DNA of 26,196 nucleotides from Ectocarpus siliculosus (lineage: Eukaryota > Sar > Phaeophyceae > Ectocarpales > Ectocarpaceae), in contig FN649730.1 in assembly GCA_000310025.1 (NCBI GenBank), positions 721,515 through 747,710 on the forward strand, in the 5' to 3' direction. Shown in pieces: positions 3,419 through 25,943 of the stretch; within the stretch, counting starts at the first letter, position 1, and each line of letters opens with the position of its first letter. The translations under genes were made by a program, and so were the position numbers. The notes beneath the pieces are model-generated. The model did not search any database. It was given only the letters and a program-made list of their open reading frames with translations, and had not been told where the DNA came from.

Positions 3419-6098
3419 GACTACAATTCCCTCATGTACTCATTTTTCCAACCATAAACCAACACTTTCTCATTTCTAGTCTCCGTCTCATATACGCTTC
3501 ATGAACTTACTTGACGATATCTCAACCAGAACTTACCCCAACCCTGCTCCCAGAGCCAACATTCTCTAATCCATTCCATCACGCCTCAACATATATACTG
3601 TGCTTACACTACCCCAAGTCTTCTTACACTTACCAAAAGTAGGGTTGACTTATTGCACGACAGACAGTGATTACATGGCGTTGGTGGTTGTTGCCTCCTA
3701 TTGTGTGTGGGTTGGGAGCACTCCCTTACCCGCTCGCCTCAACAGGTTTGCAGGCCAACTGGGTGTAGTAAAATTTCGATGCGAAGCCGAGCGCCTGGCG
3801 CTGAAATGTGAGCGAGAGAGAGGGAGAGAGAGGGAGGTGCCTCCCGAAATACGAGGTGTCGTGCCGCTTGCGGTCATTTTTATTTCCCAGGGTCCACGAG
3901 GGAAACGGATGGCGGAACCCGTCTCGCGATAAAAGCTACGGCAAGCACCGCAAGGGGAAAGATGGGGCAATAAAACAAAAAACAAAGAAATGAGAAAAGC
4001 TCCTGTGTGACCTTCCTCTTTTGTGACCCCGGCTGATACGCCAGGTATATATATACGCCGAAAGGCCTGTAAACCGGCGCCAGAATAGATGGGACGAACA
4101 AACACACACACACACACAAGCAACAGAGGCGCTCTCGCAGGTTCTACCGCCGACATCTGTTGCTGGTGTCTAGGTCAGGCCACGGGTGTGTTGTGTGTTC
4201 GTCATGTGCTCCCTTGCGCGTTGGTTTATCTAGCAGTAATCCTCCTCCCACCTGGCGCTACCTCAATGACTCGTCGTAGTCCTAGTTGTGTGTGCTCACT
4301 GAGAGCATCCTGCCGACGGAATTTGTGGTTTGGTTGTATAGTGAGGGATTGGAGGTGAATGGAGATCTAAAGGCGCCTGTTTATTCTTCGGCGCAGCAAC
4401 AAGCAACAAGCGTCGAATCCGGTTTGTGCATGCGTGTTGTGTTTCCCGTCGCCCTGCTTGCCGTCCTCGAGCCGATTACCCCACCCACGTCGACCAATCA
4501 ACGATCGCCCTGCCTGCCGTCCTGGTGCCGATTACCCCAATCAACGATCGCTCCCAGAGGCCAGAAACCTTGACCACCACCCTGCCGAACGGCCTGCGCG
4601 TGGCATCTCAAGAAACGTACGGGGCGCTGTGCACCTTCGGCATTGTTGTCAACGCTGGAAGGTAAGCGTTTCACACGTAGGTTTGATCATGACGAACACA
4701 GCGTTGAGCACATGGGTGGCATTCCCATCATTATATATTGACGGTGTTCGGTGCGAGATGGGACAAGTGGAGCCCTGTATCGAAGAGTGAATTCATGGAC
4801 CATATCATGGGAAGAGCGACGGGAGAAACGAGTGCTATCCCCCCCCCCCCCCCCCCTCCGTCCCCCGCAGCATCGACGACGCCTGCGTAAATTTGTGCGC
4901 TTGACCGCTCAATCAGCCGAAGTCTTGTGCAATTTAGTTGAACGAACGGTGTCCTCCACCCCGCGCGAGAATCGTCTCGTGCAAGCACCATCTTGCACTT
5001 GGATGTAGCAGCTCCCCCCCCCCCCCCCCCAGAGACATCGAGTCTTGCATGACAGCACGTACACCTGCTCCCTAGCTGTAGCCATTCGAAAGACATCTGC
5101 ACAAGCACAACACGCTCCACACAAGAAACTGACCCCCCCGCTCTGCGCACTTGATGGACCGCCTCCAGCCGATTGGAGACCGACCTGAACACGGGGACAT
5201 GCCATTTGCTCGAGCTCATGGCCTTCAAGAGCACAGCGACGCGCTCGCACCAGCAGGTACAGAAAAACACGGACCATGACATCAGCCATGACGTCAGCGC
5301 TGGATCCAAACAAATCGATTTTTGAAAATGGGAAAAAACAAGTTGCCTAAGTTCATCCGCGAGGCTCGTCCCTGTTCTCGGAGAAGTAAACCTGCTCCTG
5401 ATCACGCCCCTGCTTGCCTGTAGCTCTATTTTCAAGTCGGGTGAAATGTTGGTGTTTTTGTCTTTTACAACGGCCGATTAGCGGGCACACGGGAAGACCG
5501 TGGAACCAACAATTGTGTGGAATCAGCTATTGTCATTGTCTTTCCTTGTGCCACCAATAGTTTACTGTCGTACACTTCCAGGATTGTGTTTTCTTCTCTA
5601 TGGACTAGTCTTTCTACCGTGCTTTCTGTAACAGTTGAACGCCCGTTCAGCATGTAAAACGAAATTTTTCACGCGATGTTCATCGCGGTGCAAGCTTTCG
5701 ATTTGTTCTTATGGCAATTTCTTTAACTGTCTGTGTTTGTCGTAGGTTGTGAGCGAATTTGAGGAAATGGGCGGAACGACTTCTACACACGGCTCGCGAG
5801 ACCAGATGCTGTACTGCGTGGTGAGTTTTCCTTTTTCTTTTTCGCTATCCGTTATTGTTGCTGCTGTTGCATACGCGGGTCCGCGCTTTGAGAGTTGAAG
5901 GAACGGAATGTTGGTGTTTTCGTGACACATCAGATTGTAAGACGTTGTCGACCGTGATGACCTTGACGACTTTTCTATGCCGACTCGCCTATAAAGCTTG
6001 TCTCCTTTGTCCCTGTTGTTGGTGCTGGTGGTAGTGATGGTGTGGGGCGGTGCTTCTGCTACTGCTGTTGCTGCTGTTGCTGCTGTTGCTGCTGTTGT

Positions 6099-6162
<64 letters not shown>

Positions 6163-9100
6163 GTTGGTGGTGTTTTTCTGCTTGTTGCTGTTGCTTTTAT
6201 TGTCTTGTGTCCTGTCTTAAGAAATGAATGAACGAACGTACAATCGGGATGGTATTGTTGCTAATACAGGACGTACTGCGGGACAACCTGGAGAGGGCCG
6301 TTGAGCTGCTGGCGGACACGCTCATCAACCCTAGGGTTACGCCGGAGGAGGTGGAGGAACAAAAGGCGGTGAGATTTATTTATAGTGTGATTTGGTGAGA
6401 TTTAGTGAGACTTGGTAAAGAGTTATTAACGGTGAGATTTCAAGTGAGATTTTGTTAGATTTTATGTGAGATTTCTTGCAACATTCGGCAAACATCTTCG
6501 GGCCGGTAGAGCATTGTTCGCAGGTCTCCAGATCTTGACTGGTTGCATGTTCGTAATTACCCCTAGGAAGACGCCTATACCCTGGTTTCCACATTTAGTC
6601 GTAGAAGGTAGTATTAAGTGAGATTTACAGAAGCAAAGTACGTAACACGTTTGCCAGTACTCAACGGTAGTGGAAAGTTGGATACCATAACCAGCGCAGG
6701 CAGAGGAAGAAACGAAAAACTGTGAAAGTGCAGGTAGTGTCCGCTAACATCATGGATCCATTGCTTTTTTGTCCCAGACTCTTATCGTGCATGGAGATGA
6801 ATTAATTCGTTGCTGTCGTGGCTCCGATGTATGAGGGTGGTGTGACGAAGGCCCTTGACCGTCTTCGATCGGAGCCCCCTCTTATACCGGAATAAGAAGG
6901 TAGCCTACTGTTATATGGTATCGCGGGTCGAACCCGTGACAAACATTTCGACCCTCCTACATCGGGGCCCCTCTTGCAAGGTAGGAAGTACCTTGTTACA
7001 TCGGAACCACGACTGGATGTCTATAAAAAAAAAAAAACCGACGACGATGATAATGACGACGACGACGACGGCAGGTGATCGGCTTCCAACTGGAGGACAC
7101 GATGCCCGAGGTCACAATGCGAGAGTCCCTCATGACGGCGGCCTTTAAGGGCCAGCCTCTCGGGCGCCCGTACTGGTGCCCAAAATCGGCGCTCCCCAAG
7201 CTCGAGGCCAACATGGTCCGGAGCTTCCGAAAGAGGTTAGCTACCTGTTGATGTTCTGTGGGCGCGCCACCTTGACGTTATGCATTCTTGCTCTTTTTGA
7301 TGTTTGGTGCCGGAAACGTGCTGGGCGTCGGCAGAAGGTATCTTTGTGTGTTGGTTTGCTGTGGGCACGCGACCTTGATGCTGTGCGTTATTGCTCTCAA
7401 GAGAGGTGTAAGGTGCGAGCATTATGCGGGGCTTCCGAAAGAGCCATCTGTTGATGCATTGATGTATTTTGTCACGTGATGTTGACGTTGTCGATTAACG
7501 CTCTTGAGAGGTGTCAGGTGCCAGCATCACGCGGGGCGTCCGAAAGAGGTAGCTATTTGATGTGTCATGGTCGTCATGGTGTTATGTTCGCGTGACTTTG
7601 AAGGTTGACGACTTGCGTACCTGCGACCGCCACCGGTTCGCTGGACAACAACCCCAAGACGCAATGCCGTACGCCTCTGCTCTATGTTAGCGCTACGGTT
7701 GGTGACGAAAAGGGTTCCTACTGCTGCCCCGCTGAGGTCACGCGGCCGTGACATTGTACACTGTTGCTTTTTTAGATGAATGGGTAGTCTTTCCGTGTGT
7801 GTTTTTATTATTCCTTCATTTTTTAGATGCCAGGTGTGCCAGCATCGCGTGCGGGGTTTCAGGATGATTGGTTTTTGCATGTACGGTGCGTGGAAGCCAT
7901 TTTCGTTTGTAACCAGAATCGCGGTTCACTCTCCCTACCCGATAGAGCAACTTAGCTCATGAAATTCCGATGACCCCTGGTGCGACCTAGGCTTGGAGTA
8001 CACTCTTCCCCGCTTTGTGTGGCACCCGTGTTTCTTTTCAAAGAAAATTTCCTTGGTAGCCTTAGATCCCCCCCCCCCTATTTTTTGTCACATTCTGCGG
8101 GGCACCGTGCTTCTAAAACACTGAAGAAAATGTTATCCTTGAAGCGGGGAGTGTCGTCATTCTTGTCGTCCTTGTTAAAAAGGGTGTATGACTGCTGTAC
8201 AAGAGAGACATGACAACACACACAGCACACAGCACACACAGCACAACGTTCCAGGTCCATCATTCGGTTTGTTGACCTCTCTTGGGAGGTCTCGACGTAA
8301 AATCTCGTTTTTTGGTTAAAGTTGTGGTCGGTCGTTGTTTTCGTGCCAACAAAACAAGACAGAAGATGACCCCCAACATCATCTCACTCCTTCTTTCACC
8401 GCCTCTGCGTGTGTTTTGTTACAAAACCTCTACGACCACTACACAACCACTGGGTGTGCTTACAACCACACGCAGGCATTTCACGCCGGGGAAAATGGTG
8501 CTCGCGGGGGCGGGGGTAGACCACGATGAGCTCGTCCGATTGGGGAACAAGTACTTCGGAGGGCTCGAGGCCGTGGAGGGCGGCAACGGTGATGTTGTTG
8601 ATGCTGCCGGACCGGCGGAGTCGAGCTACGTCGGGGGAGAGTCGCGCAACGTCGTTGCCAAGCATAAGGTACAGAGGAGGAATTGCCGGACGGCGTTGTT
8701 GTGGCTTGGGGGAGAGTCGCGCAGTGTCTTGGCACGGAAAAGGTACAGGCGAGGAATTAGTGCCGTTGGCTCGGAAAAGGTATAGGCAAGGGACGAGTAC
8801 GACGGTGTTGTTGTGGCTTGGGGAAGAGTCGCAGGGTGGGGTGTCTTGGCACGGATAAGGTAGACACGAGGAAGTTTTTACAAGGCGCTGTTGTATGCAT
8901 AGCGGCGGGGAGAGTCCACAAGTGCTGGGAGATCCAGTAGTAGGCTGCCCGCATCATTCTCCCAACACGAACGGAATCATGCCAAGATAATCGAAAGCTA
9001 CTGCTGCCAGCATGAGCACCACTGTCGCCACCCAATCGAAAGAGAGGGGCCATAGCAACGGCAACAGCAACGGTGTCCAACGACGATCACTACCACATGA

Positions 9101-12100
9101 ACTACCGATACATACCCTCTGTTCCCTCCCTTGCAAAACCGATATATACCCTTCTCGGTGCCTCCCCCTCCCCCCCACCTTTGTCTCGCAGGACAAGTTA
9201 ACCCGCGTATCGGTGGCCTTCAAGGTGGGCGGCTGGCACGACGATCTCCTCGTACCCACCTGCGTGCTTCAGGTACGATGCCCACTTTCGCGGCCAGATA
9301 GATGTAAAAAATCGATATGCCCGCGTTGTTGAGGCCATCAAGAGACCAGACAGGATGGTATGCCGGCGTACAGGAAGTATTGAGATAAGCTTACCCATAT
9401 AGTCGTGTGTACCATGCAACACAACGGGTTAGTTTTTTTTTTTGCTCGTTCTGTATTATTCGCGTTAGAATACACGGTATTTTTTTGTTCTGTAAACGTG
9501 TGTGCCACACAAACACCACGGATTCTTTCTTTTTTTGCTCCGTAATCGTGTGTCAAAAACGAGTCATTTTTTTCAATTCTGTTCTGTATGACGAAGAAAA
9601 AACGCCAGCATGCGCGTTGTTGGGGGGCCCGTGACTGACAGGTTTTGCTTGGCGGTGGGGACTCATTTTCCGCGGGCGGGCCGGGCAAGGGCATGTACTC
9701 CAGGCTGTACCGAGAAGTGCTCAACAGGTACAGTGAGCCCCCGCACCCCAAGAACCTCTAGTTTTGCCCGAGGCTCTCAGTTGTAGGGAAACGCTTCGAA
9801 TGGTCACTACATACGGTTTTGTGTAGTGGGTCTTAACCGAGCTCGCAGTTTGGTGCTCAATTTCTTAGATTTTGGAGTGTTGTTGGAGGCTACATCAACT
9901 GTAAGTACCGTGGGTATAGGACAGGTGGGATATAACAACATTGCTGGTGCTGGTGGTAGGTAGCGCTGTTGTTTTCGTTGTCGTTGCTTGCGGTTGGAGC
10001 AGCCGGTGTCGTCTTCGTTGCTGGAGGTAGTTTGAGCCGATTTGCTGTCAATTTAATTTTTTTTGCGTTTGGTGTCGGGGGAACCTGCTTCTGTGGCGAT
10101 AGATGCCCTTCATTAAGGGTTCACATAACAATCTCCCCAGAGTAGAAAACATTAATATTCATACGAACACAGAAAGATTATCCGTTCGAGAAAACACCAC
10201 GGCAGTGGAAGGGGATGGTTTGAAGTCTTCACAGCGAGAGGGAAGAAAACCGGCTGGATACTGGGCTTATTTTGAGTCTGTCTTAAGCCTTTACACTGTC
10301 TAAGACGATTCCCTCTTTTCACACTTAAGTCACCCCGATTGGTTACGGGTCGGAGTCTGTAGACTTGCCAGCGTGGCAATTGATCCATATCCATCGTGAC
10401 TCCATCCCCAAGGAAGGGCTGATCCACAGGTAGGTCATGCTTGCTTGTTGCCTGCTACACGCCCGGTTTTGTTGCGCCGCGTCAGATTCTACTGGGCCGA
10501 GGCAGCGGAGGCGTTTTCCATGATCCACGACGAGACCGGGCTGCTCGGGATAGCCGGCGCCGCGGCCGACAAGCTGAGGGCCGGCCAGCTGATGCACGTC
10601 TTCTGCGAACACTTCGCGACCCTAGCCACGGTGCCGGTAAGGAGAGATCTTTGCGATTTATTTGCAAGATACCACACCCCCTGGACCGATTTGCAAAGCT
10701 CGATTTACACTCCCTGGACCGATTTTCGAAGCTCGATATCTCGGCAGGAAAAGCAGTGGCGGTGCCGAAAATGGCGGCGTTGGAACTGTCTCGTAGAGAG
10801 CTTTCCGAAAACGTATACTTTGATTTCGGCATCCTCTTCGTCGTGGAGTAATCGAGCTTTGAAAATCGGTCCAGGGTGTGTGATACCTTACGTCATGTCA
10901 CCTACGGTACGCCTTGACGAAGAAGATGCGTAAGTCAAACGATAGGCTTTTGGAAAGCTCCCGACGAGACGGCTTCAACGTTCGGTGCTGCCACTCATTT
11001 TGTGGAGAAGTCGAGCCATGAAACCGGTTCAGGTGTCATACCTTGTGTCATCTACGGTTCGTTTGTTTGTGTGATGCTAATACAATGTGCATATGTTTAG
11101 AAATGCTACCCCGTTCGAGATAAGTACCACAGCACTCGAGTGAAGTCTTTTCAGCAGAGAGTGGGACCAAAACATTCAATTCCAGACGTCGTTTTCTTCA
11201 CGTCGCGGTATGTTTGGATCAATCATCCCGGACGGACAACAAGGCCAACGCGGAGTGTTTGTTTTTCGCCCCCTCCCCGTATCGTTCCTGTAAAATACAC
11301 GGCTTGCTGATGTTTTGCATACCGTAGGCAGAATGCACAATACATAGACGTTCCGTTCCTCCTGTGGCATTTCTCACGAGAGGGCCAGCGGTGCCGTACG
11401 TACGTACAGTACGGAAGGCCAACACAGGAGTTTTTTTTTTTTAACTCCGCCTCCGCTTCACCAGTGGTGCTGTAAAATGCACGGCTCATGTTATGCATAC
11501 ATACCGTAGGCAGAACGCACAGCAGCAGTCTGTCCCTCCTGTCATTTTCTCTCTGATGTATCTTACAAGTGGGCCAACGCTTCTGTATGTGCGTAGAGCG
11601 AATCACTCGCCGTCTGCACCCGCGGCTTCAGTCAAGACGAGACGCGAGGTGGTGCATTGACGGCCCCCTTCAGTGGTTCACTCTAAATAGCTCTATTCCC
11701 TCTAACTTCATCACATTTACTCTATTAATCTCGATAATTTTCTCTCTATAGCTTTTATCATGTTCCCTCTAGCTTCATCACGTTCACGCTGTTTAGCTTG
11801 ATCATGTTCACTCTATTTAGCTCTATTTATCGTGTTCCCTCTAGCTTCATCACGTTCACTCTATTAATCTCGATCATTTTCTCTCTATAGCTTTTATCAT
11901 GTTCCCTCTAGCTTCATCACGTTCACGCTATTTAGCTTGATAATTTTCACTCTTAGCTTTTATCATGTTCCCCCTAAGTCCATCACATTCACGCTATTTG
12001 CTTGATCATTTTCACTCTGCAATAGCTTATCATACCGTGCACTCTAATTTTTTCATTAGCTTTGGCATCTTCACCCCAGCTTGATCAAAATTACTGTATT

Positions 12101-14488
12101 GCTACTCGGGCGGGGAATCGTAGAAACACAGGTAGTGTCTGCTAACGATACGAAATTACTCATCGCTAGTCTATCCCAGACTCTTCTCTGAGGAAGAGAG
12201 GACTTGTCTTCCAAAACCCAAAAAACACTTAATTAAAGTATTCAAATTCTAGTTATTTCGTTGTGTTCTTGTAGAAGAGAAGCACGCACACGCCTCCGTG
12301 ACACCGTTCGTCCCTTGTGTTGTCAACGTTGTGGGTGGTGAAACAGGATACCGATGGCCCATAACTCCCTTGTCTTGGGTGATGAAACAGGATACCACCG
12401 AGCCGAAACGTTGTTCGTCCCTTGTCTTGTCAACGGTGTGTGTGGTGAAACAGGTCACTGACGAGGAGCTAAGCCGCGCGAGGAACATGCTAAAGTGCAA
12501 CGTTCTCACGCACCTGGAGTCAAGGCTCGTGCTGTTCGAGGACATCGGCAGACAGATGCTAACCTACGGGCGAAGAGAGACGCCGGAGGTAAGTTTCAGC
12601 AGCAGCAGCCTAGTCAGTCGAGCGTCACCGCACGTTAATGAGCTGTTCGCGTTCATCCGAAGATCGCGAATTGTTTGAGCGTCGAGAGACGAGGGTAGTC
12701 AAGATGGACGGGGGTAATTTTATCTCTTTGCCCCCGCCGGTGTGCGACCAGGGCGACCAAAAGCGCCGACATGCCGCCCTCTACATGTCTTTATATCTTC
12801 ATTTATACTACCCTCTATATGTCTCTATATCTTCCTTTATACTTCTTCTACTCTTAAAATGTCTCTATATTTTCGGTTATACCACTCTCCCGCTTCGCGT
12901 CGTTCTCCTCCTCACTTGTTTGTTTTTTGTGCCCCCCCCCGAACGACAACCCCCTCCCCCCCCGCCGAGGGGGGGTGGGTTTTCGTCGCTTGGCAAGCGA
13001 CGTTGTAAAACAAGCCCCCCACCCCCCCCTCGGTGTTTGCCATCGGGGGTTGGGTTTTCGTCGCTTGGCAACGACGTTGTAAAACAAGCCGCCCCCCCCG
13101 GTGTTTGCCATCGGGGTTGGGTTTTCGTCGCTTGGCAACGACGTTGTAAAACAAGCCCCCCACTCGGTGTTTGCCATCGGGATTGGGTTTTCGTCGCTTG
13201 GCAACGACGTTGTAAAAGAAGCCAATTCACTTCGTGAACTCGGCAACCAGGTTACCGTTTTTTTTTTTACCTCGGTTTTTTGTTTTGGCGGTAACCAAAA
13301 TGGTGGTCGAGTAGATCATGTTGTGCGGGGTCGAGAACCCTCACTCCGCGCAACGGGGGATGATCGCACCACGTTGTGTTAAAATGGTCAAGCTTCCTCG
13401 AGGCAGTTACACAGTGCTTACAACTGTCAATGGAAGTGAAAGCACCAGAAAATAAACTAAGTCATACGTAGCTGTCATCCGTACGCAAGGAAGTAAGCCA
13501 AGATGCCGAACACCCTTAGCAGGATGCAGCTCACCCTTCATGCGACTCGCCAAATACCTCACGGCGCTTCGCGCTTGGTGATGTGAGAGCCTGGTCCGGT
13601 GAGAACCCGGCGTGCTCCGTCCCGGCTTTGTAGGGATGCGAGGTCAATGGTCAAACGACTACGGCATGCACGACTATGAGTACACCCCCCCCCCCCCGGT
13701 GCTTGCCATCGGGATTGGCTTTTTCGTCGCTTGGCAACGACGTTGTAAAAGAAGCCAATTCACTTCGTGAACTCGGCAACCAGGTTACCGGTTTTTTTTA
13801 CCTCTGTTTTTTTTGTTCGGCGGTAACCATAATGGTGGTCGAGTAGATCATGTTGTGCGGGGTGGAGAAACCTCACTCCGCGCGAGGGGGATGATCGCAC
13901 CACGTTGTGTTAAATTGGTCAAGCATCCTCGAGGCTGTTACACAGTGCTTATAACTGTCTCTGGAAGTGAAAGCACCAGAAAATAAATTAAGTCATACGC
14001 AGCCGTCATCCGTACGCAAGGAAGTAAGCACAAGATGCCGAACACCCTTAGCAGGATGCAGCTCACCCTTCATGCGACTCGCCGAATACCTCACGGTGCT
14101 TCGCGCTTGGTGATGTGAGAGCCTGGTCCGGTGAGAACCCGGCATGCTCCATCCCGGCTTTGTAGGGATGCGAGGTCAATGGTCTAGCGACTACGGCATG
14201 CACGACTATGAGTACACCCCCCCCCTAACGACAACGTTTACACGAGTAACCCCCCCCCCCGCCTCTATCTTGCACCCTTCCATGCTACAGGAGGTTTGCG
14301 CCAAGATCGACGCCGTAACGGCAGAAGACCTCATGACGGTGGCAAGGCGCGCCCTGGCGACCCCCCCCAGCCTGTCCGTGGTAGGGAGCGATCTCAACGG
14401 GGTGCCCACTTACGAGCAGGTGTGCTCGTGGTTCATGAAACCCCCGCTGGAGCAAGAAATGAAAGCTGGCCGAGGAGGAACACAGTAG
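1702..14488 (+). CDS. PMPCA: Mitochondrial processing peptidase alpha subunit, 13 exons, complete
   Basis: MPP-alpha is the substrate-binding partner of the MPP-alpha/beta heterodimer that removes presequences from proteins imported into the mitochondrial matrix (M16 family knowledge). Exons: 1702-1965, 2967-3101, 4558-4661, 5169-5256, 5746-5820, 6270-6368, 7075-7235, 8476-8668, 9192-9272, 9642-9727, 10486-10636, 12454-12588, 14291-14488. All introns are GT-AG and every junction phase matches, giving 1770 nt and 589 residues ending in TAG. Visible marks are an Arg/Ala/Ser-rich N-terminus, [17 protein letters not shown] (about 117-133), [10 protein letters not shown] (about 142-151), a degenerate zinc motif HLLEL (180-184), the loop [14 protein letters not shown] (404-417) and [12 protein letters not shown]. 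The loop and the lost second His assign the alpha rather than the beta subunit. The ATG at 1702 is the first ATG in this frame. Family lengths are usually about 500-570; the excess is at the N-terminus. The split codons (AG|C Ser, AG|G Arg, AG|A Arg) strongly support the model. Exon 1's donor is the least certain boundary. Confidence 0.95.
2480..2664. mobile_element. MITE-like inverted-repeat element, copy A (intron 1)
   Basis: Degenerate terminal inverted repeats flank a core. The left end reads CTCCTGGACCAAGTTTCAAA. The right end, reverse complemented, reads CCGATTTGTAGAGCTCGATT with GGTGACGCAACATACC outside it. The core shares GGCGGCGTTGAATCC and GAGAGCTTTCC with copies B and D. It is the most diverged of the four copies, lies in a spliced intron and has no coding capacity. 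Confidence 0.7.
3369..3414 (+). repeat. (CT)n microsatellite
   Basis: An uninterrupted CT dinucleotide run in MPP-alpha intron 2, pyrimidine-rich on the sense strand. Confidence 0.98.
3885..4050 (+). repeat. Dispersed repeat G, copy 1
   Basis: It shares TCGCGATAAAAG, GGCAAGCACCGCA, CTCCTGTGT and GTGACCCCGGCTG, in the same order and spacing, with 22895-23040. No terminal repeats or coding capacity are visible. It lies sense to MPP-alpha intron 2, while its partner is antisense to NudC intron 3. Confidence 0.75.
4451..4549 (+). repeat. Direct duplication next to the intron 2 acceptor
   Basis: Two adjacent copies (4451-4506 and 4507-4549) share GCCCTGC(T/C)TGCCGTCCT, GCCGATTACCCCA and ATCAACGATC. 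The second leads into GCTCCCAG|AGG, the authentic acceptor. The first copy is longer by a short insert. Confidence 0.85.
5169..5256 (+). other. MPP-alpha exon 4: degenerate M16 zinc-binding motif
   Basis: Catalytic M16 peptidases, including MPP-beta, carry HxxEH. Here the equivalent stretch reads [12 protein letters not shown]: the first His (180) and Glu (183) remain, but the second His is Leu184. Loss of this motif is typical of the non-catalytic alpha subunit. The exon begins with one base, C, that completes the Ser codon left as AG at the end of exon 3, giving NAG-SR, the expected family sequence at this place. It ends HQQ|GTACAG in phase 0. Confidence 0.92.
5998..6200 (+). repeat. CTG/TTG triplet repeat in MPP-alpha intron 5
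   Basis: A mixed GTT/GCT/CTG region contains a pure stretch of about 16 CTG units at 6101-6150. It reads as polyalanine, polycysteine or polyleucine in the three frames, which is artefact, because the flanking exons splice cleanly across it. Confidence 0.95.
6369..6626 (+). repeat. Iterated donor motif GTGAGATTT in intron 6
   Basis: The authentic donor of exon 6 is GTGAGATTT at 6369. The exact nonamer recurs at 6395, 6432, 6444, 6466 and 6618. One-mismatch forms lie at 6385, 6405 and 6454. The spacing is irregular. Confidence 0.9.
6731..6786 (+). repeat. Dispersed repeat H, copy 1
   Basis: It shares CAGGTAGTGTCCGCTAAC and GTCCCAGACTCTT with 12129-12186 in intron 11, in the same orientation. 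The element is about 56 bp with no other recognisable feature. Confidence 0.7.
6815..7013 (-). mobile_element. Inverted-repeat element, copy E (intron 6)
   Basis: A 199-bp block is bounded by 16-bp terminal inverted repeats, GTCGTGGCTCCGATGT and (reverse complemented) GTCGTGGTTCCGATGT, with one mismatch. It is homologous in inverse orientation to copy F at 14752-15000. On its - strand it carries CGGGTTCGACCCG, similar to a tRNA T-arm/B-box, so a short SINE is an alternative to a MITE. It ends about 60 nt before exon 7. Confidence 0.75.
7200..7620 (+). repeat. Tandem repeat, about 105 bp, each unit ending in a copy of the exon 7 3' end
   Basis: The exon end GGAGCTTCCGAAAGAG (7220-7235) recurs as GGGGCTTCCGAAAGAG (7428-7443) and GGGGCGTCCGAAAGAG (7533-7548), with a weaker form ending GGCAGAAG at 7337. 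Each is followed by a copy of the intron head: GTTAGC, GTATCT, CCATCT and GTAGCT. Periods are 102, 106 and 105. Confidence 0.88.
7236..8475 (+). other. MPP-alpha intron 7 with donor-anchored tandem repeat
   Basis: The first third is a roughly 105-bp tandem repeat phased on the splice donor (7236-7337, 7338-7443, 7444-7548, then a partial). A fainter copy of its AGCATC..GCGGGG segment lies near 7829-7860. The remainder has C- and T-rich stretches and no supported gene. Confidence 0.75.
8620..8925 (+). repeat. Tandem repeat of the exon 8 3' end and its donor
   Basis: The exon end GGGGGAGAGTCGCGCAACG..AAGCATAAG|GTACAG is followed by copies ending GGCACGGAAAAG|GTACAG (8743), GCTCGGAAAAG|GTATAG (8780) and GGCACGGATAAG|GTAGAC (8860). 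GACG(G)..GTTGTTGTGGCTTGGGG is repeated between them. Units are 74, 37 and 80 nt. Confidence 0.88.
9642..9727 (+). other. MPP-alpha exon 10: glycine-rich substrate loop
   Basis: This exon encodes [19 protein letters not shown] followed by YREVLN. The flexible glycine-rich loop is the diagnostic feature of MPP-alpha and takes part in presequence binding and handover to the beta subunit (established for yeast and mammalian MPP). It ends with AG, completed by A at the start of exon 11 (Arg429), joining LNR to [11 protein letters not shown] without a gap in the family pattern. Confidence 0.95.
10655..10911. mobile_element. MITE-like element, copy B
   Basis: The left terminus GATACCACACCCCCTGGACC and the reverse-complemented right terminus GGTATCACACACCCTGGACC are near-perfect inverted repeats. 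They continue through GATTT(T/G)CAAAGCTCGATT and, on the right, out to a GTAGGTGACATGACGTAAGG-type end. The left repeat is partly duplicated inside the element. The core matches the reverse complement of copy D. It starts only about 20 nt after the exon 11 donor. Confidence 0.85.
10912..11065. mobile_element. MITE-like element, copy C (truncated)
   Basis: It has the same orientation as copy D and begins inside the core (GACGAAGAAGATGCGTAAG). It retains CGACGAGACGGCTTCAACG and a degraded right terminus (AAACCGGTTCAGGTGTCATACC). It abuts copy B head-to-head, so B and C form a larger inverted structure. Confidence 0.75.
11241..11580 (+). repeat. Two-unit tandem duplication, about 165-175 bp per unit
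   Basis: Units start AAGGCCAAC at 11241 and 11415. Both contain TGTAAAATRCACGGCT, TACCGTAGGCAGAAYGCACA and CCCTCCTGT-like segments in order. A third start, GGGCCAACG, follows near 11571. Confidence 0.85.
11681..12095 (+). repeat. AT-rich minisatellite in MPP-alpha intron 11
   Basis: This is an array of variants of TTCCCTCTAGCTTCATCACG, TTCACGCTATTTAGCTTGAT and CTCTCTATAGCTTTTATCATG, with a higher-order period of about 135 bp (the segment near 11747 recurs near 11882). The later units decay. Its composition is strikingly T-rich on the sense strand. Confidence 0.9.
12129..12186 (+). repeat. Dispersed repeat H, copy 2
   Basis: It contains CAGGTAGTGTCTGCTAAC and ATCCCAGACTCTT, matching 6731-6786 in the same orientation. 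Confidence 0.7.
12300..12453 (+). repeat. Triplicated 3' splice site before exon 12
   Basis: GGTG(G/A)TGAAACAG occurs three times, ending at 12346, 12390 and the authentic 12453. Each is preceded by CCCTTGT(G/C)TTG-type sequence. The spacing is 44 and 63 nt. Confidence 0.9.
12784..12882 (+). repeat. Short tandem repeat, about 35-40 bp, three copies
   Basis: ATGTCT(T/C)TATATCTTC(A/C)TTTATAC is repeated with variation in intron 12. Confidence 0.85.
12960..13222 (+). repeat. Tandem repeat of about 65 bp with hairpin core, four units
   Basis: Each unit contains TTTTCGTCGCTTGGCAACGA followed by CGTTGTAAAACAAGCC, separated by C-runs and CGGTGTTTGCCATCGGG. The first unit has a perfect palindromic stem, CGTCGCTTGGCAAGCGACG. 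The later units lack one G and pair imperfectly. Confidence 0.9.
13561..13684 (-). mobile_element. tRNA-like (SINE-like) repeat, copy S1
   Basis: On the - strand it reads GTACTCATAGTCGTGCATGC, then an A-box-like TGCCGTAGTCG, ATTGACCTCGCATCCC, and the T-arm-like hairpin CCGG-GTTCTCA-CCGG with a 7-nt loop. It lies in the first copy of the 533-bp duplication. Confidence 0.75.
14094..14217 (-). mobile_element. tRNA-like (SINE-like) repeat, copy S2
   Basis: This is the same element as S1, carried by the second copy of the 533-bp duplication. The A-box-like string is TGCCGTAGTCG, and the T-arm-like CCGGGTTCTCACCGG is intact. Confidence 0.75.
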
Positions 14489-15639: not shown

Positions 15640-15739
15640 NNNNNNNNNNNNNNNNNNNNNNNNNNNNNNNNNNNNNNNNNNNNNNNNNNNNNNNNNNNNN
15701 NNNNNNNNNNNNNNNNNNNNNNNNNNNNNNNNNNNNNNN
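15640..15739. other. 100-N assembly gap
   Basis: Exactly 100 undetermined bases, followed at once by a G-run. The true gap length is probably unknown. Confidence 0.99.
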
Positions 15740-17317: not shown

Positions 17318-17668
17318 TCACGATATCTTAGCCCTCGAGAAGTCCATTTCCGGGTGCTGACAAAGAAAAAATGAAAAAAACGGCAGCACGGGTGCCAACG
17401 AAGCAGTCGCACAACAAATGGCACCGGGGATAGGGGAGCAGTACTCAAATTGTTGCTTGTCAAGTACCTGGTGTAAAAAAGAGTACGTTGACGATTGACT
17501 TGACCTGTCATGATCTTCGAGGCGGACGACGGTCCTAAAGTACTGTGATAAAAAACGACGTAAGTGGCAAGTAGGGGCCTTTACATTCGTGGTGAGATTG
17601 AGAGGTGGACCGTGAGGCGCCTATCAAGCGAAATTTAGACCGCACACATAGTAGATGTAGATGCCAGC

Positions 17669-17703
<35 letters not shown>

Positions 17704-20700
17704 AAACGTACCCAATTAGTCCACAACAACAGTCAAAACAACCAGCACAAAATCAACAACCGGCACCACCGTCGCCACCACCACCTCGAACACCACAACA
17801 ACCACCAAAAACAGCCACAAAACCAGCACCATCGACAACATCAACAGCAACAATTGTCGCCGCCACGATCACCGCCACCCCAACAACAGTGCCGCCGCTC
17901 CCGACCACCACCACCACCAACAACAAACGCAGTGAAAAAACCGTACCTGCGCCATGAACTTCCCCAGCATCTCCTGCTTGCTCATCTCGTCTGCGGTAGG
18001 CAGCCCCTGAGCCTTCTGACGCTGATCGAACTGCTCCCCCAGACGGAACCAAGAGAACAAGACAGAACGAGGAGAACGCCGCAGAAATGAAAAAAAAAAA
18101 AAAACTCTACGAATGAAAATAGGACCGCCTTCGCGAGCATGTTAAGCGTTTCTTAAGTATATGTGAAATAGAGACAGGTTTCGTAACCCCAATCCCCAAC
18201 CCAAACCCGTAACCCCTTCTAAAGCCAAGCTTCATATCCTCGTGAAGGCTACTGAGGATGCTGGGACTGACAGTTTGATGAAAATAGATGAACATGTCGA
18301 ACGTGAAATATCCGCACTATCACCGGCAAGGAGTAGTCGGAATAACGACAGCGAAACAACTGTCGACTCAAAAAAACACATTATCAAAACAATGGTTCAA
18401 CCTGGCATGTTGTTTCCGTTTTTTCACGCAGCGGGGCTAGCACCAGTTCCAGGGTGCCATACGTTTGGTCTACATACCTCTTGGCCGGACGCACTCGCAT
18501 CTCTCGAAAAACAACACGACATGTTTCCCTCTCAAAGGTCAATATATATTGCTCTTGTCTCCACACCGAAAAGCCGTTCGGGTCTCCATTCAGTCAGTAC
18601 CTTCAAACATGTGTACTGGTCCACCTGAAGCGGACGCTCTCCGCGGCCACAAGCCACCTACCCAAAAAAAAGGGGCACACCTTTCTAGAAATCAAAGAAA
18701 AGGAAATAAAAATGGACACCAGAAGTATAATTACAATTCTCGCTGTTTCGAGGTACGGTACCAAGTGGTGGGTACGTTTCTAGTGGACGTTTTCTGTGTT
18801 GCGAAAGCGTGAGACAGAAACGGCAGACGAGTAACTGACTTACCATCATCTTCTCCACAGTCTTGCGTGTTTCCCCGTCGAGCTCGGACAGCTTGCTGTT
18901 CTCCGGTTGCACCTGACAACATACGGTCGGAAAAATCCACTAAGCTTGGAAGGCATTTGAGTCTACCGGGGTCGGGGATTACCATCGCCACAACCCATTC
19001 CACCCGCGTAGCACGGCCGTTACTCGAGGCTAGCCAGGGTTGGATGGTTCTCAAAAAACATGCACCCAACAGTTAACGTAGTATATCGTTGTACTGTGTG
19101 CCTACATTCCCTCCCTCGTCTATCTGCACCATGTGAGCGGATGGGCCTGACACTACATAACTCTGACATGAGAGTGGTCAGAGGCCCAAGGTAGGTTGTT
19201 TTTTTACGCTTCCGTGGGCGTTCCAGCATCTGCTTTGCCTACTGCTGTGGTCTCTCTCCGCTTGAAACGACGACACATCACGGAGGTGTTTACATAGCAC
19301 GATACAGCCGTCCAAAGAGGCGCTCATCTCGGGAAGCATCTTCAATTGTTGCATTTTCGTAACATTCAAGTGCATACACCCGTAGCTTAGACACGTGATC
19401 CCCGAAGCGCATCGTCCATGTTTACTATTATGTTCAAGTACACGCCCTTGCCTTACAATACATCTGCAAGCTTCCGCAATTTGTTGCTGATTCATAAGGT
19501 TCAAGTGCACGCCCTTAGCTCACATATGTTATCTTATCCCCGGAAGCATCATCCGTTGCTTTTATACTCCGCCTTCTTACCTTAGAGGTGTTGATCTCTG
19601 GGTCACCCTTGACGACGCACTTCCACCATTCCATTTGGTTCTCCTATTACAATGAGCCAAGTTCCCGGAAAGTTCACACAGGCCGAGGGGAAATGGTCAA
19701 CGTCATCCATTGGCCGTAGTGTCCAGGCGATATGGCAGGGGGGGGGCTGCAAACATGTGCGCATTCTTTCTCAATTTGGACGACACCAAAGTAATGCAAA
19801 AAAATCCAAACTCTCCCGAGTGAACACGTAACATGGGGTCTAGGTACAATTTATGACACATTCAGAAAGAAAAAAACGATGGTACACAATCGCGCAGACT
19901 CGTGCGAGCTCACTGACTGTACTGTCACCTTGCTGCTCCTTGCCGAAAGTTTTCAGCACGATCTGATGCGTTACTACTGCCGTACCGTACACTGGAGTTG
20001 CCGTGATCGTTGCCCTTCGCGTTCGTGTCATTTGCTCTCTGGACAGCCTGGTCCATCCGTTCTTCTGCGGCCTCGTCATGAACAACCACCACATTCTCAC
20101 ACCAATACAGCGACCCTACTGCAGCACATCGTATTTTTTTCCATAACCCACAGGTGCTGTTGTATTATCCTTCATGCGTTTGTTGTGTTCTTCGCCGCAG
20201 ATTCTGCATTACCATCACTGCCATCCCCATCACCTTTTGCAGCGCGATGCTGACTTCCTTCCCATCTTCAAGGGTCCAAAAGCTGTCGTCCACCTTCACC
20301 TTGTTGTACATCTCGCCCTGCATAAAAAAAAAATAGACAAAAAAATGGTAAGTTACGGCACCGTGCCCGCGTGCTTCTTGCCGGAGGGGGTGTACTCATA
20401 GTCGTGCATGCCGTAGTGGTTAGACCGTTGACCTCGCATCCCTACAAAGCCAGGACGGAGCACGCCGGGTTCTCACCGGACCAGGCCCGCACATCACCAA
20501 GCGCGGGAGGGGGGGAGGGGGGGGGTATCCCCTGAAGGGAAGGGATAGGGTTGAGGTGGGTGGATCAAACAAAAAACACACCACCGGCATTCTACTACTG
20601 TAGGAAAGGGAGTGATACCACGTGCACAGCAGCGTCTGCAACAACGTTGCAACAGCAGTGGAAGTGGTGGGGATAAAACCGAACGGGTCTCGAGATGCCG

Positions 20701-23700
20701 AGGGCCTGGCTAAAGGGTCAAAGAGTCCGATTTTGCGCGTGACCATCGCTGGTGCCTCGTTCGATAAACTTGATCGAGCGACGCCACAATCAAAGAAGCT
20801 AAGGGCCGTGCGAGGACATGTAGCCGGAAAACGAGAAAGAAATCAATTCCTTGTAGCAAGAGGGAGGTCGGGGGATGACCACCCAATGCACCCTGTGGTC
20901 ACAACGGGAAGGATCTCCATCACCTGCAGGGCCAGTGCAACGTCAAGGAAGGTATCTACCAACTTGGTTTGTACCGTGCAATAATAACAAGCGTCGTGGA
21001 GAGTTGTCTTGTTTTATGCTCTTGTCGTCCCATTTATGTTCTGGACGTCAGTCTTTTCGCCTTTCGCTAACGAGGAAGGATCTCTCTCCTGATACCTGTC
21101 AGAGGATCTACACCAAGGTATGAGGATCTAACTACTGTAGGTGGCACAGTTCAGGAGCCAAGCCTCGCATATTGGTGAGGTGGGACTACCACTGTACGAC
21201 GGCTACAAACGCACTGTGGACGTTTGCTCACGTCGGCGTCAAGAAGGGCTGGCCTTATCTAACAATGTGCCCATGACCAAAAATCGCTGAATACGGCAAC
21301 TGCCGAAAACAGCGGAGTATGTTGACATACTGGCGACAACGGAAGGAGAGGACCCCCGACGAACGCTTCTGGGGTTTCTTTACACACACGCACACCCCTG
21401 GTCCCGTGAGAACGCGACGTGCTCCGTCCCGGCTTTATAGGGATGCGTGGTCAATAGTCTAACGACTTTTTCGGCAAGCACGGCTATGAGTAACTTCTCC
21501 CCCTCAGATAGGATAGACGGGCTAGGGGCCATCTTTCGCAAAATAGGAAGGAGCGATTGGCCATCGGTGGTCGGTCTTATGGGAACAACGCTCAGTCCTG
21601 TCGAGGACGCGTGGTCTAACAACGAAGGCATGCAAAAACATGACTACGCCCTCCCATGTCCGTCTCACGTCCACGAGGAGCGGCTGTCCCTTGAGCCCAA
21701 CCCTCAGGCGCGACTTGGTGATGTCGCACACAACATCTCGGGACTTGGATCCCTCCGGCACCGGCACTACCACGCTGAGCTCTTGCAGAGTCTGCGTCCA
21801 GTCGTACTTGTCCGTGCTGCCGCCGTTTCCGACCGCTGCAGAATCGGGGGGAGATACGGGAGACGCCGGGCGGGAAAGGTAATTCGCGGACAGAACTCAG
21901 AAGAGGTTATCTACTGTGTAAGATCTTTCTGAGCAACAGAACAAAAGAGGGCGATACGACGGTATCTACCAATGAATAGAGAGAGTGCGAATATCGTCGC
22001 AGGTAGACTACCCGTTTCGAGACAGTTCTTGGAGGAGATGCGCTGAGTCAATCAAGTCTTGGCAAAGATGGTTGGCGGACCCCTGCTGGTTATGGATATA
22101 TTTTTCTAGAAAATATGCATACCATCACAGAGAGATTACCCGTACGACATAACACATGCTTCTTCATATCTTGTGGGACATGGTTTCGAATCCAGCACAC
22201 ACGTTATGCCGGGCCAATAGGTCGCGAACACAAGCACCTACGGGTAGCAATTGTTGTTGTGGACACATTTTTCAGCAAACTTCGAAATTTCAACTCGCTC
22301 TTCTCCTTTGTAGGATACTCCACGCACTTCACAAGTTTGTTTCCAAGAAATGTCGTGCGGGAATCAGGAGATATACATAGAAATACCTTCCCGGCTGTAC
22401 AGACACATATACAACACAGATCTAGCGGGTATTTACTATATTGGCACCAGACCACTCTTTCCCTGGCAGTAGTAGTTGGTGCCCTGTAAACACTTTCGTT
22501 ATTGGTTGTCCTAGAGCTGCCACGCCTAAGCCTGTCGGGTTCTGAAGGTGGTAAAGACCGAGAATTCGACTACGGTAGGTGACATGAGAATCCGACTACG
22601 ATAGGTGACATGGGCGCAAGATATCACACCCCCTGGACCGATTCTCAAACCTGGACTTCTCCATGACGAAGAGGATGCATAAATGAAACGATGCGTTTTC
22701 GAAAGCTCTCGACGAGACGGCTCCAACGCCGCCGTTTTCGGCACTGCCACTCGTTTTGCTGTGGAGAGATCGAGCTTCGAAAATCCGTCCAGGGGGTGTG
22801 GTATCTAACGTTGCCACCTACGGTGGACCAGCACGCGGCAAGCCTCAAACCTCAAACACCACACAAGCACCAACCGGATCAAATCGGTGTGTACGCGAAA
22901 ATTCGAGCTCACGGTTGACTAGGGCAAGAAACGGCTGAATCCTTGTCGCGATAAAAGTCAAGGCAAGCACCGCAGAAGGAAGGTAGATTAACACCTCCTG
23001 TGTTGCCTTCTTCCTGCGTGACCCCGGCTGGTGCGTCCAGAATTGTACAGTAAGATGGAAGGACCGACGTCCAGAACAAATGGGATACAAAGCGAAGGGA
23101 TAAACAAAAAAAAAACAGAACAAATGGAACCACAAAAAACAAAAGAGGATAAAGAAGAAAAAAAGAGACGACAAAAAAAAACAAAAGGACAACAAAAACC
23201 TTACGAGGCGGGGAGTTGTCCTCTTCCTCGTCATTCTCTTTGTCGCCAGTCTCCTCTTCTTCTGGTCCGTCCCCACCGGCCGCCGCTGTTGCTGCTGCTG
23301 GTACCGCAGACAGTCCGCCAGCGGCCGCCGCAGCCTTCACGGCTTCCTTCATGTCCGCCGCCGCCACTCCCGTCTGGACCACGGTCGAAGTTCCCGCCGC
23401 ATCCTGTTTGGTCCACATATCATACAAGTACATGGTAGGCGTTACTGATATCTGTATCATCATGTCTGTTTTTGTCATATCATACATAGGCGTTCACCGA
23501 TCTACATGTATGATATCTGTTTGTCACATCATACATAAGCGTTACCCATACAAGATCTATCGTGGACTTATGTCTGTTTGACATATCATACAGAAGGCGT
23601 TCACCGATATCTATCGTGCATCATGTCTGTTTGTTGTATCATACGTAGGTTACCGATATATATCTATCGTGGGATATGTCTGTTTGTCATGTCATACATA

Positions 23701-25943
23701 ATAGGCGTTCATGGTGTGGGATGATACCGTTCAGAGGGCGCCCGTATGGAACGTTGCAGCAAGTAATCAAACACCACGGCAGATTCTTCGATGGTCGAAT
23801 AAAGTTTGGACTGCCGCGTCATATTCGGGGTGAACTCTGACGTTACTTCTTGTCCGATTGTAGTGATGGACAGCAACGACAACAACAGCGACAACATCAA
23901 TAACCAACAGCAACATGGTCATCATCACCAGCAGCAACAACAAACAACAACAGCAGCACCAACACAAACAACACCAAACAAAAACAACAACCCGAAAACC
24001 GACAGCCACAACCTTGCGCCATCCACTCACCGTCGAAGGCGCCGAGTCCACGTCGAACGCACCATCCTTTCCGACCTCCACGACCCCTTCTCCCTCGCCA
24101 CCACCCACACCACCGCCAGAGGAGGCCTCAGCAGCAGCATCAGCAGCAGCCAGCTTTCTCTTACGGTCTTCCTGCTCTGCCTGCGACGTACCCGAAGCAT
24201 AAGGCCAACAGAAATAAAACGGAGGGGGGGGGTGGGGAGGTACTCACGTTTTGCATGCCTTAGCTGTTAGGCCATTGGCTATGCGTTCTCATGAGGACGG
24301 CGGGTACTTGGTTATTTATACCTTGCCTACGAAAGAGGCGCATGCGTCTTGAGAGACGTCGAGACGGCATAGCTGTCGAGATAAAAAAAAAAAACATGGT
24401 GAACATGCACCTCATCGCGGGTGACTCCCCGTTCCTTTTGAACAAGTGGCGAAAAAAATGATTCGACACGTTTGCTGGTAGCGGATTTGGCTGCCACCCC
24501 CATTCGCGCGTCAGGCGTGACTGCGGTTGGAGTTTTATCGGCTACGAAGAACGAAGCATGGGCTTCCGCGCCAGCGCGTCTACGTTTACACTTCAGGGCA
24601 GCTGATATCGACTACAACAAGCCGTACGATTATCGGTTGCACTCGAGTTGTACGCCGGAGGATGCTCTGATGGATCGATCTAGGCGCCTTTTCTTGCCTG
24701 GACAGGTGGACACTGTATATCTTTCGGGTCACAAACGGTGTCTATTCTACAGTACGACACATCAAAGACCGCTTGTCTATGTCTACGAGGCCCATTGACG
24801 TCAACAACCCACTTTCTCGCGCCATGGTTCACCGAGGCGAAACAGCAGTGAAAACTTGTTCACGCAAAACTCGTGTGAACTATCTCACTAATCTTGGATA
24901 AATGTTTTGTTCGCAAGATGTGCGATCGCGTCGCAAACGACACTCGGTACTGGCGGCGAAGTCCGACACGATGAGTAGTCACATGTGGGCGCTTGATCAC
25001 AAGGATGCATACACGGCTGGGGTGAGCAGAGCACCTGAAAGCGACGACGTTTTCATCATACGGGAGCACCTGCACCCTCGAGAGCTGGCTTGCTGTGCGC
25101 GTGAAGAACCTTGTGCGTGTATTTTCCACGGTCAGTGAGATAGATCACTCACAGATTGTGTGAGCATGAGTTTCACCGCTGTTTCGCCTCGGTCAACCAT
25201 GGCGGGAGAAAGTGGGTTGTTTGCGCCAACGGGCATGAGGCATCATTCGCTCGACACACACGGGAAGTCGAGAAGCATGGTTGACGAATGTGACACCACG
25301 CTTGAGGAGAGAGAAGAAGAAGAGCTCTCCCCGGAGCCGTCGGACAACGAAGATGCCACTTTCAATGCCCTAAGCAACAAGGGAATTTCACAGTCCCGCG
25401 TGTGTTTCCTGATAAATCTCGATGATACTTTGCCCGGCGAAAGCAAGGGGTTGCCATGCTCTGTTGTGGTGTACATAATGCCCCAAACGGTACTTCGCCG
25501 ACTTCGAAAAACATCACGCCTCCAACGATCTCCAACCACATCTCCTTTTTCTCTCCCTCGATGGAGAGACGCAATCGCTACACAGGACATGTGACTGCTG
25601 TGGGCAGCATAGTCTACACCAAGGCCTAGCGAGAAACATCGAATAATAGGACGAGCATGAAGCTGTGATGTACAGATGCGGCCTAGAATGTCGCCACTTC
25701 AATATTCGCCAATGCAGTAGGTAGCAGCATTAGGCGGAGGCAGCAGCAACAAAATGATGAATTATGATTTCTTTTCGGACATTTAACCTCGGCACCCATA
25801 CATGGGCGACGAGAATCGTCCCGTCGTACCTTCTTTTTCGCCAGGGCTGCCTTCTTTTCTGCCCGCTTTTTCTCATCCGCCGCCCTGGCCTTCTGCCTCG
25901 TCAACTCCTCCTTCTCTGCGATTGCCTTTTGCCGACGAACCAC
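17318..25943 (-). CDS. NUDC: NudC nuclear distribution protein, 5'-partial, nine exons visible
   Basis: NudC is a cytoplasmic co-chaperone of HSP90 and of the dynein/LIS1 machinery, needed for nuclear movement, mitosis and stability of beta-propeller proteins (family knowledge). Exons in transcript order: 25943-25830, 24180-24031, 23403-23205, 21835-21669, 20317-20234, 19643-19581, 18912-18844, 18030-17947, 17356-17318. They total 969 nt in one open frame, giving 322 residues plus TGA. Landmarks are a Lys/Glu/Ala-rich coiled-coil segment (1-38), an acidic and Ala-rich linker (39-155), a CS domain starting KYDWTQTLQEL (164 onward) with GLKGQPLLVD, VKVDDSFWTLEDGKEV and NQMEWWKCVVKGDPEINTSK, then ENSKLSELDGETRKTVEKMM, FDQRQKAQGLPTADEMSKQE and the terminal HPEMDFSRAKIS. 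The NudC N-terminal domain (about 60-80 residues) is missing because the gene runs off the right edge. Confidence 0.95.
17357..17946 (-). other. NudC intron 8 with G/T-rich triplet repeats
   Basis: After the donor GTACGG the transcribed strand is rich in GTTGTTGGTGGTGG-type sequence (17705-17935) and ends in a pure (TTG)n run at 17672-17703. The long glutamine- or threonine-rich frames on the + strand here are antisense artefact. The acceptor TTTGTCAG precedes the final 39-nt exon. Confidence 0.85.
17672..17703 (-). repeat. (TTG)n / (CAA)n microsatellite
   Basis: About ten CAA units on the + strand, read as TTG in the NudC transcript. Confidence 0.97.
18913..19580 (-). other. NudC intron 6 with a degenerate repeat of about 65-75 bp
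   Basis: Between about 19330 and 19560 the transcribed strand repeats GATGCTTC(C)GGGGAT, AAGGGCGTGCACTTGAA and GCAACAA(A)TTG three to four times with heavy divergence. The array begins about 20 nt after the donor. The rest of the intron shows nothing recognisable. Confidence 0.7.
20391..20508 (+). mobile_element. tRNA-like (SINE-like) repeat, copy S4 (best preserved)
   Basis: It reads TGTACTCATAGTCGTGCATG, then TGCCGTAGTGGTTAGACC. The eukaryotic A-box consensus TRGCNNAGYGG matches TGCCGTAGTGG at 10 of 11 positions. About 50 bp later comes CCGGGTTCTCACCGG, a 4-bp stem with a 7-nt loop in T-arm position and a partial B-box. It does not fold as an intact tRNA: no clear acceptor or anticodon arm is seen. 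Confidence 0.78.
21396..21491 (-). mobile_element. tRNA-like (SINE-like) repeat, copy S5
   Basis: On the - strand it contains ACTCATAGCCGTGCTTGCC, ATTGACCACGCATCCC, GCCGGGACGGAGCACG and GCGTTCTCACGGGACCAGG. The A-box is disrupted by an A-run. Confidence 0.7.
21567..21650 (-). mobile_element. tRNA-like (SINE-like) repeat, copy S6
   Basis: On the - strand it contains GTAGTCATGTTTTTGCATGC, TTCGTTGTTAGACC, ACGCGTCCTCGACAGGAC and GTTGTTCCCATAAGACC. It is internally deleted relative to S4 and begins about 18 nt after the donor of NudC exon 4. Confidence 0.68.
22594..22825. mobile_element. MITE-like element, copy D (most complete)
   Basis: The left end reads CTACGATAGGTGACATGGG, then GATATCACACCCCCTGGACC. 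The right end, reverse complemented, reads CCGTAGGTGGCAACG, then AGATACCACACCCCCTGGAC. The inverted repeats extend inward to CTCGATCTCTCCA, about 65 bp per arm. The core CGACGAGACGGCTCCAACGC is shared with B and C. It is about 230 bp, non-coding, in NudC intron 3. Confidence 0.85.
22895..23040 (+). repeat. Dispersed repeat G, copy 2
   Basis: TCGCGATAAAAG, GGCAAGCACCGCA, CTCCTGTGTTGCC and GTGACCCCGGCTGG match 3885-4050 in order and orientation. Confidence 0.75.
23404..23715 (-). repeat. Minisatellite of about 51-62 bp built from the NudC intron 2 acceptor
   Basis: The authentic acceptor on the - strand is ATGATATGTGGACCAAACAG. Variants ending ACAAACAG (one ACAGAT-like) recur with their AG at 23466, 23517, 23574, 23627 and 23680. 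Each is preceded by CGGTGAACGCCTATGTATGA-type sequence and GATAGAT. Spacing is 62, 51, 57, 53 and 53. Confidence 0.88.
23860..24030 (-). repeat. GTT/TTG-rich tract after the NudC exon 2 donor
   Basis: The transcribed strand is dominated by GTTGTTTTTGTTTGG, GTTGTTGTTTGTTGTTGCTG and similar strings immediately downstream of GTGAGT. The asparagine- or glutamine-rich frames on the + strand are antisense artefact. Confidence 0.85.
24239..24311 (+). mobile_element. tRNA-like (SINE-like) repeat, copy S7 (partial)
   Basis: It reads GGTACTCACGTTTTGCATGC, CTTAGCTGTTAGGCCATTGG, CTATGCGTTCTCATGAGGAC. The 5' half of the family consensus is recognisable and the 3' half is lost. Confidence 0.65.
24442..25594 (+). 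other. Candidate nested or decayed coding region, unidentified
   Basis: Open frames 24442-24798 (about 119 codons, no early ATG), 24902-25138 (78 codons) and 25160-25594 (144 codons, ATG near the start) run in series on the + strand, antisense to NudC. The last two share a frame, separated by one stop. The third has an acidic stretch (TLEEREEEELSPEPSDNED). No conserved domain is recognised. It could be a degenerate transposable-element or nested gene fragment, or chance. Confidence 0.25.
25830..25943 (-). other. First visible NudC exon: basic/acidic coiled-coil segment
   Basis: It encodes 38 residues dominated by Lys, Glu, Ala and Arg (AIAEKEELTRQKARAADEKK and onward). This corresponds to the charged helical stretch between the NudC N-terminal domain and the linker. 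The acceptor CGCACAG at its 5' side and the donor AAG|GTACGA fix the boundaries. Nothing resembling the NudC N-terminal domain is visible between 25944 and 26196, so the upstream intron continues past the edge. Confidence 0.85.

Follow-up and report, generated by a model that had tools for sequence, protein, structure and literature searches.

Local tandem duplications copy splice sites into introns of Ectocarpus siliculosus without a pooled excess at the junctions

Introduction

Do splice junctions attract tandem duplications, or do such duplications fall on junctions much as they fall elsewhere in introns? The question is raised by a 26,196-nt stretch of the genome of the brown alga Ectocarpus siliculosus (hereafter, the window; C5:721515-747710 in a genome of 189 Mb and 492 contigs), in which two unrelated genes, encoding MPP-alpha (mitochondrial processing peptidase alpha) and NudC, carry repeats beside or across several of their splice sites. 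An earlier note on this DNA had read these repeats as seeded at the junctions and as a mode of intron growth that multiplies splice sites, and had linked them to the duplication of AGGT-containing exon segments proposed as a route of intron gain. Here, we compare junctions with intron interiors, in the window and in 299 introns from four unrelated gene families.

Materials and methods

For each junction, the 60 nt centred on it were scored against the next 200 nt of the same intron, with dinucleotide shuffles for comparison. As a control, interior windows taken every 20 nt were scored in the same way as the junction windows, and simple repeats were masked.

Loci for the independent sample were found with the Pfam profiles of kinesin (PF00225), CCT (PF00118), SNF2 (PF00176), and MCM (PF00493); 70 stretches, labelled L001-L070, were taken and splice-aware gene models were fitted to them. 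The sample covers 39 of 45 kinesin clusters (single-match clusters were left out), 9 CCT regions (the C31 pair was left out), 14 SNF2 regions (the C26:5960422 cluster, the C37 clusters, and single-match places were left out), and 8 of 8 MCM clusters. The first-pass splice models appeared to over-split the genes and were refitted with a higher intron cost and with profiles extended by genes of this genome. Introns with weak flanking exons, 58 in number (43 and 15), were dropped; the 43 include those of L048, a divergent CCT-like gene with a weak model, all introns of which were excluded. The final sample comprises 152 kinesin, 72 CCT, 49 SNF2, and 26 MCM introns. The first 244 modelled introns, from the window and L001-L047, have a median length of 480 nt, near the autosomal median of 524 bp given for Ectocarpus in the available part of PMC12477816. 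GC donors are present in 30 of these 244 introns, some of them perhaps misplaced by the aligner; a splice misplacement of a few bases barely shifts a 60-nt window.

Results

The MPP-alpha gene lies on the forward strand (1702-14487) and has 13 exons (1702-1965, 2967-3101, 4558-4661, 5169-5256, 5746-5820, 6270-6368, 7075-7235, 8476-8668, 9192-9272, 9642-9727, 10486-10636, 12454-12588, and 14291-14487) and 12 introns, with a single open frame of 589 aa. The predicted product has Pfam matches to Peptidase_M16 and Peptidase_M16_C, with which the name MPP-alpha, taken from the earlier note, appears consistent. The NudC gene, on the reverse strand (17318-25934), is incomplete at its 5' end; it has 9 exons within the window, the first of them incomplete, in one open frame, with the last exon and the stop identified and introns 1 to 8 complete, and its product matches the CS domain in Pfam. 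The rebuilt models give 12 introns for MPP-alpha and 8 for NudC, bearing out the earlier count of 20 complete introns. Scans of the whole window for tRNA and Rfam families (gathering threshold) returned no match.

Intron 12 of MPP-alpha contains a dispersed element of approximately 520 bp, present at 13160-14220 as two tandem copies with a spacing of 531-533 nt and led by a 66-bp minisatellite. The element has at least 77 matches in the genome, the others reaching up to 97% identity among the 40 that were scored of 2381 first-look candidates, and pieces of it lie within intron 7 of L019, intron 7 of L023, intron 2 of L050, and intron 4 of L059. It has no Rfam or tRNA match. Compared by eye, NudC intron sequences at 20398-20510 and 21400-21500 are like its 3' part.

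The six introns that had been named as carrying junction repeats all have a self-match of the 60-nt junction window at p < 0.01, and these matches exceed dinucleotide shuffles, with p from 6e-3 to 2e-9; exon sequence, however, is reached in only 3 of the 6. In MPP-alpha intron 7 (7224-7560, forward strand), the exon end CTTCCGAAAGAG is duplicated together with the GT that follows it (p = 5.5e-6; 29 exonic nt in the match); one copy, at 7432, has no GT, and the other, at 7537, has it, with a donor score of 5.6 against 8.5 for the real donor. In MPP-alpha intron 8 (8632-8870, forward strand), a unit made of the exon end and the donor lies at 8638 and has copies at 8713 and 8825 (p = 2e-9; 30 exonic nt, the limit set by the window size), and decoy donors at 8742, 8779, and 8859 score 6.9, 6.1, and 6.1, compared with 6.9 for the real one. 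MPP-alpha intron 11 (12306-12461, forward strand) has its acceptor unit, with the end GTGAAACAG, duplicated at 43/49 identity and with 8 exonic nt in the match, so that decoy acceptors at 12347 (score 6.1) and 12391 (5.5) stand upstream of the real acceptor at 12454 (7.4).

The remaining three introns match without any exonic base, so that the description 'anchored on the junction' suits them loosely. In MPP-alpha intron 2 (4449-4551, forward strand), copies at 4449-4508 and 4505-4551 abut each other beside the acceptor (44/60 identity; p = 6e-6). Short GTGAGATTT repeats run from the donor onward in MPP-alpha intron 6 (6369-6475, forward strand; p = 6e-3), where TRF reports arrays at 6383-6410 and 6432-6475 and decoy donors are found at 6394, 6431, and 6443. 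NudC intron 2 (23404-23700, reverse strand) holds a TRF array with a period of about 53 that extends up to the acceptor (p = 4e-3), the adjoining exon starting at 23403. For the repeat regions of MPP-alpha introns 7, 8, and 11 and NudC intron 2, a search that skips very common words found no second locus in the genome; since each region matches only itself, these repeats appear to have been made locally.

Within the window, 3 of 20 donors and 3 of 20 acceptors have a match at p < 0.01 (6/40 in total), as do 167 of the 1277 interior windows of the same 20 introns (13.1%). Forty random interior positions in these introns are expected to give 5.4 matches (SD 1.9), and at least 6 are obtained with P = 0.46. 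The window's introns are repeat-rich throughout, and thus the six cases are the junction share of the repeats: the point in favour of junction seeding that six of 20 introns have a junction self-match is explained by random placement. Copies of 40-nt exon ends within their own intron (p < 0.001) were found in the window for 3 of 20 upstream exon ends and 0 of 19 downstream exon starts and for 95 of 1113 interior 40-mers, an uneven split that leans against indifferent placement.

The independent sample gives the same answer when pooled. At p < 0.001, matches were found at 9 of 255 donors and 7 of 254 acceptors (16/509) and in 277 of 7624 interior windows, which corresponds to a junction-to-interior ratio of 0.87 (0.47-1.33). 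For matches that span the junction, the counts were 7/255 donors and 3/254 acceptors (10/509) against 201/7624 in the interior (0.75; 0.36-1.28), and at p < 0.01 they were 21/255 and 16/254 against 467/7624 (1.19; 0.84-1.62). By family, the ratio at p < 0.001 was 1.07 (0.42-1.90) for kinesin, 0.87 (0.17-2.11) for CCT, and 0.66 (0.16-1.46) for SNF2 and MCM together; at p < 0.01 the corresponding values were 1.10, 1.45, and 1.04, and every interval spans 1. Windows of 80 nt, applied to the first 224 sample introns, yielded 0.99 (0.54-1.66).

By contrast, weighting the comparison within introns raised the ratio in the sample to 1.44 (1.01-2.02) at p < 0.01 and to 1.17 (0.65-2.01) at p < 0.001; where matches spanned the junction, it stood at 1.04 (0.48-1.81). 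In the 60 sample introns of at least 700 nt, the within-intron ratio was 1.99 (1.17-2.98) at p < 0.01, 2.12 (0.76-3.96) at p < 0.001, and 1.31 (0.00-2.63) for spanning matches; in the 71 introns of that length that include the window's own, it was 1.95 (1.24-2.84), 2.12 (1.09-3.60), and 1.49 (0.40-2.53), respectively. A modest junction excess may therefore remain compatible with these ratios. Together with strong spanning cases in intron 3 of L007, introns 3 and 5 of L023, intron 4 of L041, intron 8 of L045, and intron 4 of L070, they are what can be said for duplication seeded at the junction, promoted by AGGT or by splicing, as a specific mode of intron growth. Set against the pooled ratios, the spanning ratios, and the position profile described below, which has no peak at the junction, we consider such a mode improbable. 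The kinesin gene L023 has two acceptor-spanning duplications, one in each of the introns just named.

Exon ends, too, are copied about as often as interior sequence in the sample. In 224 sample introns, a copy of the 40-nt exon end (p < 0.001) was found in its own intron in 10 of 417 cases and in other introns in 2 of 2509, which argues that the exon-end copies are real; for intron-internal 40-mers, the own-intron rate was the same (138/5523). Sample introns with a junction match also had an interior match in 11 of 16 cases, compared with 44 of 201, the two counts being not fully independent. The exon halves of copies probably decay more slowly, selection keeping them recognisable for longer, an effect that would inflate the junction rate and might equally mask a true depletion there.

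The position of the matches along long introns bears on how the within-intron excess is to be read. In 87 sample introns of at least 600 nt, with partners allowed on either side, matches were found for 8.1% of windows at the junction, 6.5% at 1-50 nt from it, 10.2% at 51-100 nt, 10.8% at 101-150 nt, 9.7% at 151-250 nt, 6.4% at 251-350 nt, and 3.5% farther in. Across their outer 250 nt, these 87 introns thus give a plateau with no peak at the junction itself, and we assign the junction excess of long introns to this outer zone and not to the splice site. Consistently, in sample introns of at least 500 nt, windows 60-160 nt from an end matched 2.09 times (1.19-3.37) as often as those more than 240 nt away, suggesting that duplication is uneven along long introns. 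It is conceivable, and we hold it tentatively, that long introns acquire duplications, or retain them, mainly in their outer 250 nt, either because transposons inserted later have taken up the middle or because the ends are prone to mutation, the junction itself being in no way special. The distance profiles of the sample introns point in this direction, as does the presence of the dispersed element of approximately 520 bp inside MPP-alpha intron 12 and four sampled introns; the confidence limits, however, are wide, and the 13 window introns of at least 600 nt display no fall beyond 350 nt (38/239). The enrichment of duplications in the end zones is weak and unproven.

Twenty junction matches at p < 0.001 were found among 319 introns, those of the window included; mapping across the junction succeeded for 13, 2 of them in the window, and failed for 7, including that of MPP-alpha intron 7, in which the junction lies beside a gap. 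The mapped copies are 72-97% identical to their source, 11 of the 13 keep the GT or AG, and 8 of these 11 equal or exceed the real site in score, as might be expected if the duplicated sites were maintained as alternative splice sites. Such maintenance is nonetheless unlikely: use of the 11 decoys would shift the frame in 6 cases and, in 4 of the 5 in-frame cases, introduce a stop; 97 of the 319 introns in any case have, in their first 300 nt, a cryptic donor that matches or surpasses the real one in strength; and the retention of two bases at 72-97% identity requires no selection. Since 10 of the 11 decoys would be disruptive and strong cryptic donors are common, the decoys look tolerated rather than maintained, and we regard their use as unlikely. 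The lone open in-frame case is intron 8 of L045, where a copy of the exon start, identical at 33 of 34 bases, lies upstream of the acceptor; splicing to this decoy acceptor would lengthen the product by 71 codons, none of them a stop, which makes it a candidate for an alternative isoform. The donor excess among spanning matches in the sample (7/255 against 3/254) hints at an asymmetry, as might arise if decoy acceptors did more harm than decoy donors.

Intron gain by tandem duplication has been described for a potato RdRp gene (PMC4974935) and for cases in Drosophila (PMC2891723), and, as far as the available text of these papers goes, the present duplications are likewise local, tandem, and carriers of splice signals. 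Unlike in those cases, existing introns lengthen here. Some introns could in principle have been born through tandem duplication of an AGGT-containing exon segment (the Rogers model, established elsewhere according to the accessible part of PMC4974935), with the repeats as relics of their birth. Under this model the intron start should resemble the start of the downstream exon, and the intron end the end of the upstream exon. In 235 introns, however, the mean in-register identity between intron ends and the opposite exon ends was at background, with 6.17 and 6.15 of 24 where mismatched pairs gave 6.11 and 6.00, and identity of at least 14/24 occurred in one case against 0.48 expected, with none at 15, in a comparison that sees undecayed events only, old ones having decayed past detection. 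The proposed link to AGGT duplication thus finds no support in these 235 introns, and we give the birth of these introns by this route very little credence.

Introners are dispersed, near-identical copies that fill whole introns at many loci, and are likewise a source of intron sequence. No pair among the 319 introns matched over at least 80% of the shorter intron, and 30 of the 319 have pieces in common with another intron. Unlike dispersed introner elements, the repeat regions of MPP-alpha introns 7, 8, and 11 and NudC intron 2 were each found at a single locus in the genome search described above, which skips very common words.

Discussion

The repeats are most probably the product of ordinary local tandem duplication with no particular regard to splice junctions, a reading that we prefer because, in pooled counts, the copies reach junctions about as often as they reach the intron interior. 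Tandem duplication of units of approximately 10 to 200 nt would strike introns, and some events would straddle a junction. After such an event, the copy of the splice site on the exon side would presumably keep working, and the other copy, with the attached piece of exon, would become part of the intron, leaving it one unit longer and furnished with a decoy. The duplications could originate by replication slippage or break repair and would be close to neutral. A concentration of duplications in the outer parts of long introns is compatible with ordinary local duplication.

What the earlier note had seen therefore divides. The copying of splice sites into introns is borne out by the alignments of the window and the sample: it recurs in unrelated genes, lengthens introns, and multiplies GT and AG sites, with no clear depletion at the junctions and often with a decoy left behind. 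The reading of these copies as seeded at splice junctions is not borne out at the present sample size, and the comparison of junctions with interiors that it invited gave no pooled excess but a modest within-intron one at the laxer threshold, about twofold in introns of at least 700 nt; the observation itself is true.

Tandem repeats that cross exon-intron boundaries are already known, from human genes. In genes of human segmental duplications, internal tandem repeats across these boundaries multiply splice sites and alter intron structure, as set out in the available sections of PMC2812944, and here, too, copies contain both sides of the junction (MPP-alpha introns 7, 8, and 11, and 10 of 509 sample junctions). 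In the human genes, the same sections describe copy numbers that vary between recent paralogues and changes supported by transcripts, whereas the repeats reported here are single loci described from DNA and display no pooled excess over the intron interior. Direct repeats at splice junctions, as here, were also described by Rogers and Bendich (2025; PMC11782384), near the borders of 213 introns; those repeats have a mean length of 11.4 bp, pair the 5' border with the 3' border, and are interpreted as scars of insertion; in the accessible portion of that paper, the null is an equal-base one and no interior control was found. The copies in Ectocarpus differ in being longer and in adjoining one junction. 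Among the matches listed in a search of the open-licence literature, there was no report of how often duplications span splice sites in brown algae.

With interior windows as the control, a pattern that is striking in two genes thus proves to be nearly the one expected from random placement, and such a control is advisable wherever repeats at junctions are taken as evidence of intron origin. In a more specific picture, local tandem duplication would fall mainly in the outer 250 nt of long introns and pass across splice sites without hindrance; approximately 1 junction in 50 would thereby have its own exon-intron boundary copied, in most cases together with a decoy about equal in strength to the real site. 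This is a speculation that we think rather unlikely to hold as a whole. If it were true, exon-side cues would have to choose the right copy, and the copies would feed the lengthening and sliding of introns. Exonic splice enhancers are mentioned for Ectocarpus in the accessible text of PMC12477816 and are a possible cue of this kind. Of lasting use are a measured rate of duplication across splice sites in a genome with long introns, a suggestion that such introns have more duplications in their outer parts than farther in, and a set of natural splice-site duplicates of similar strength, from which one might learn how the correct site is selected.
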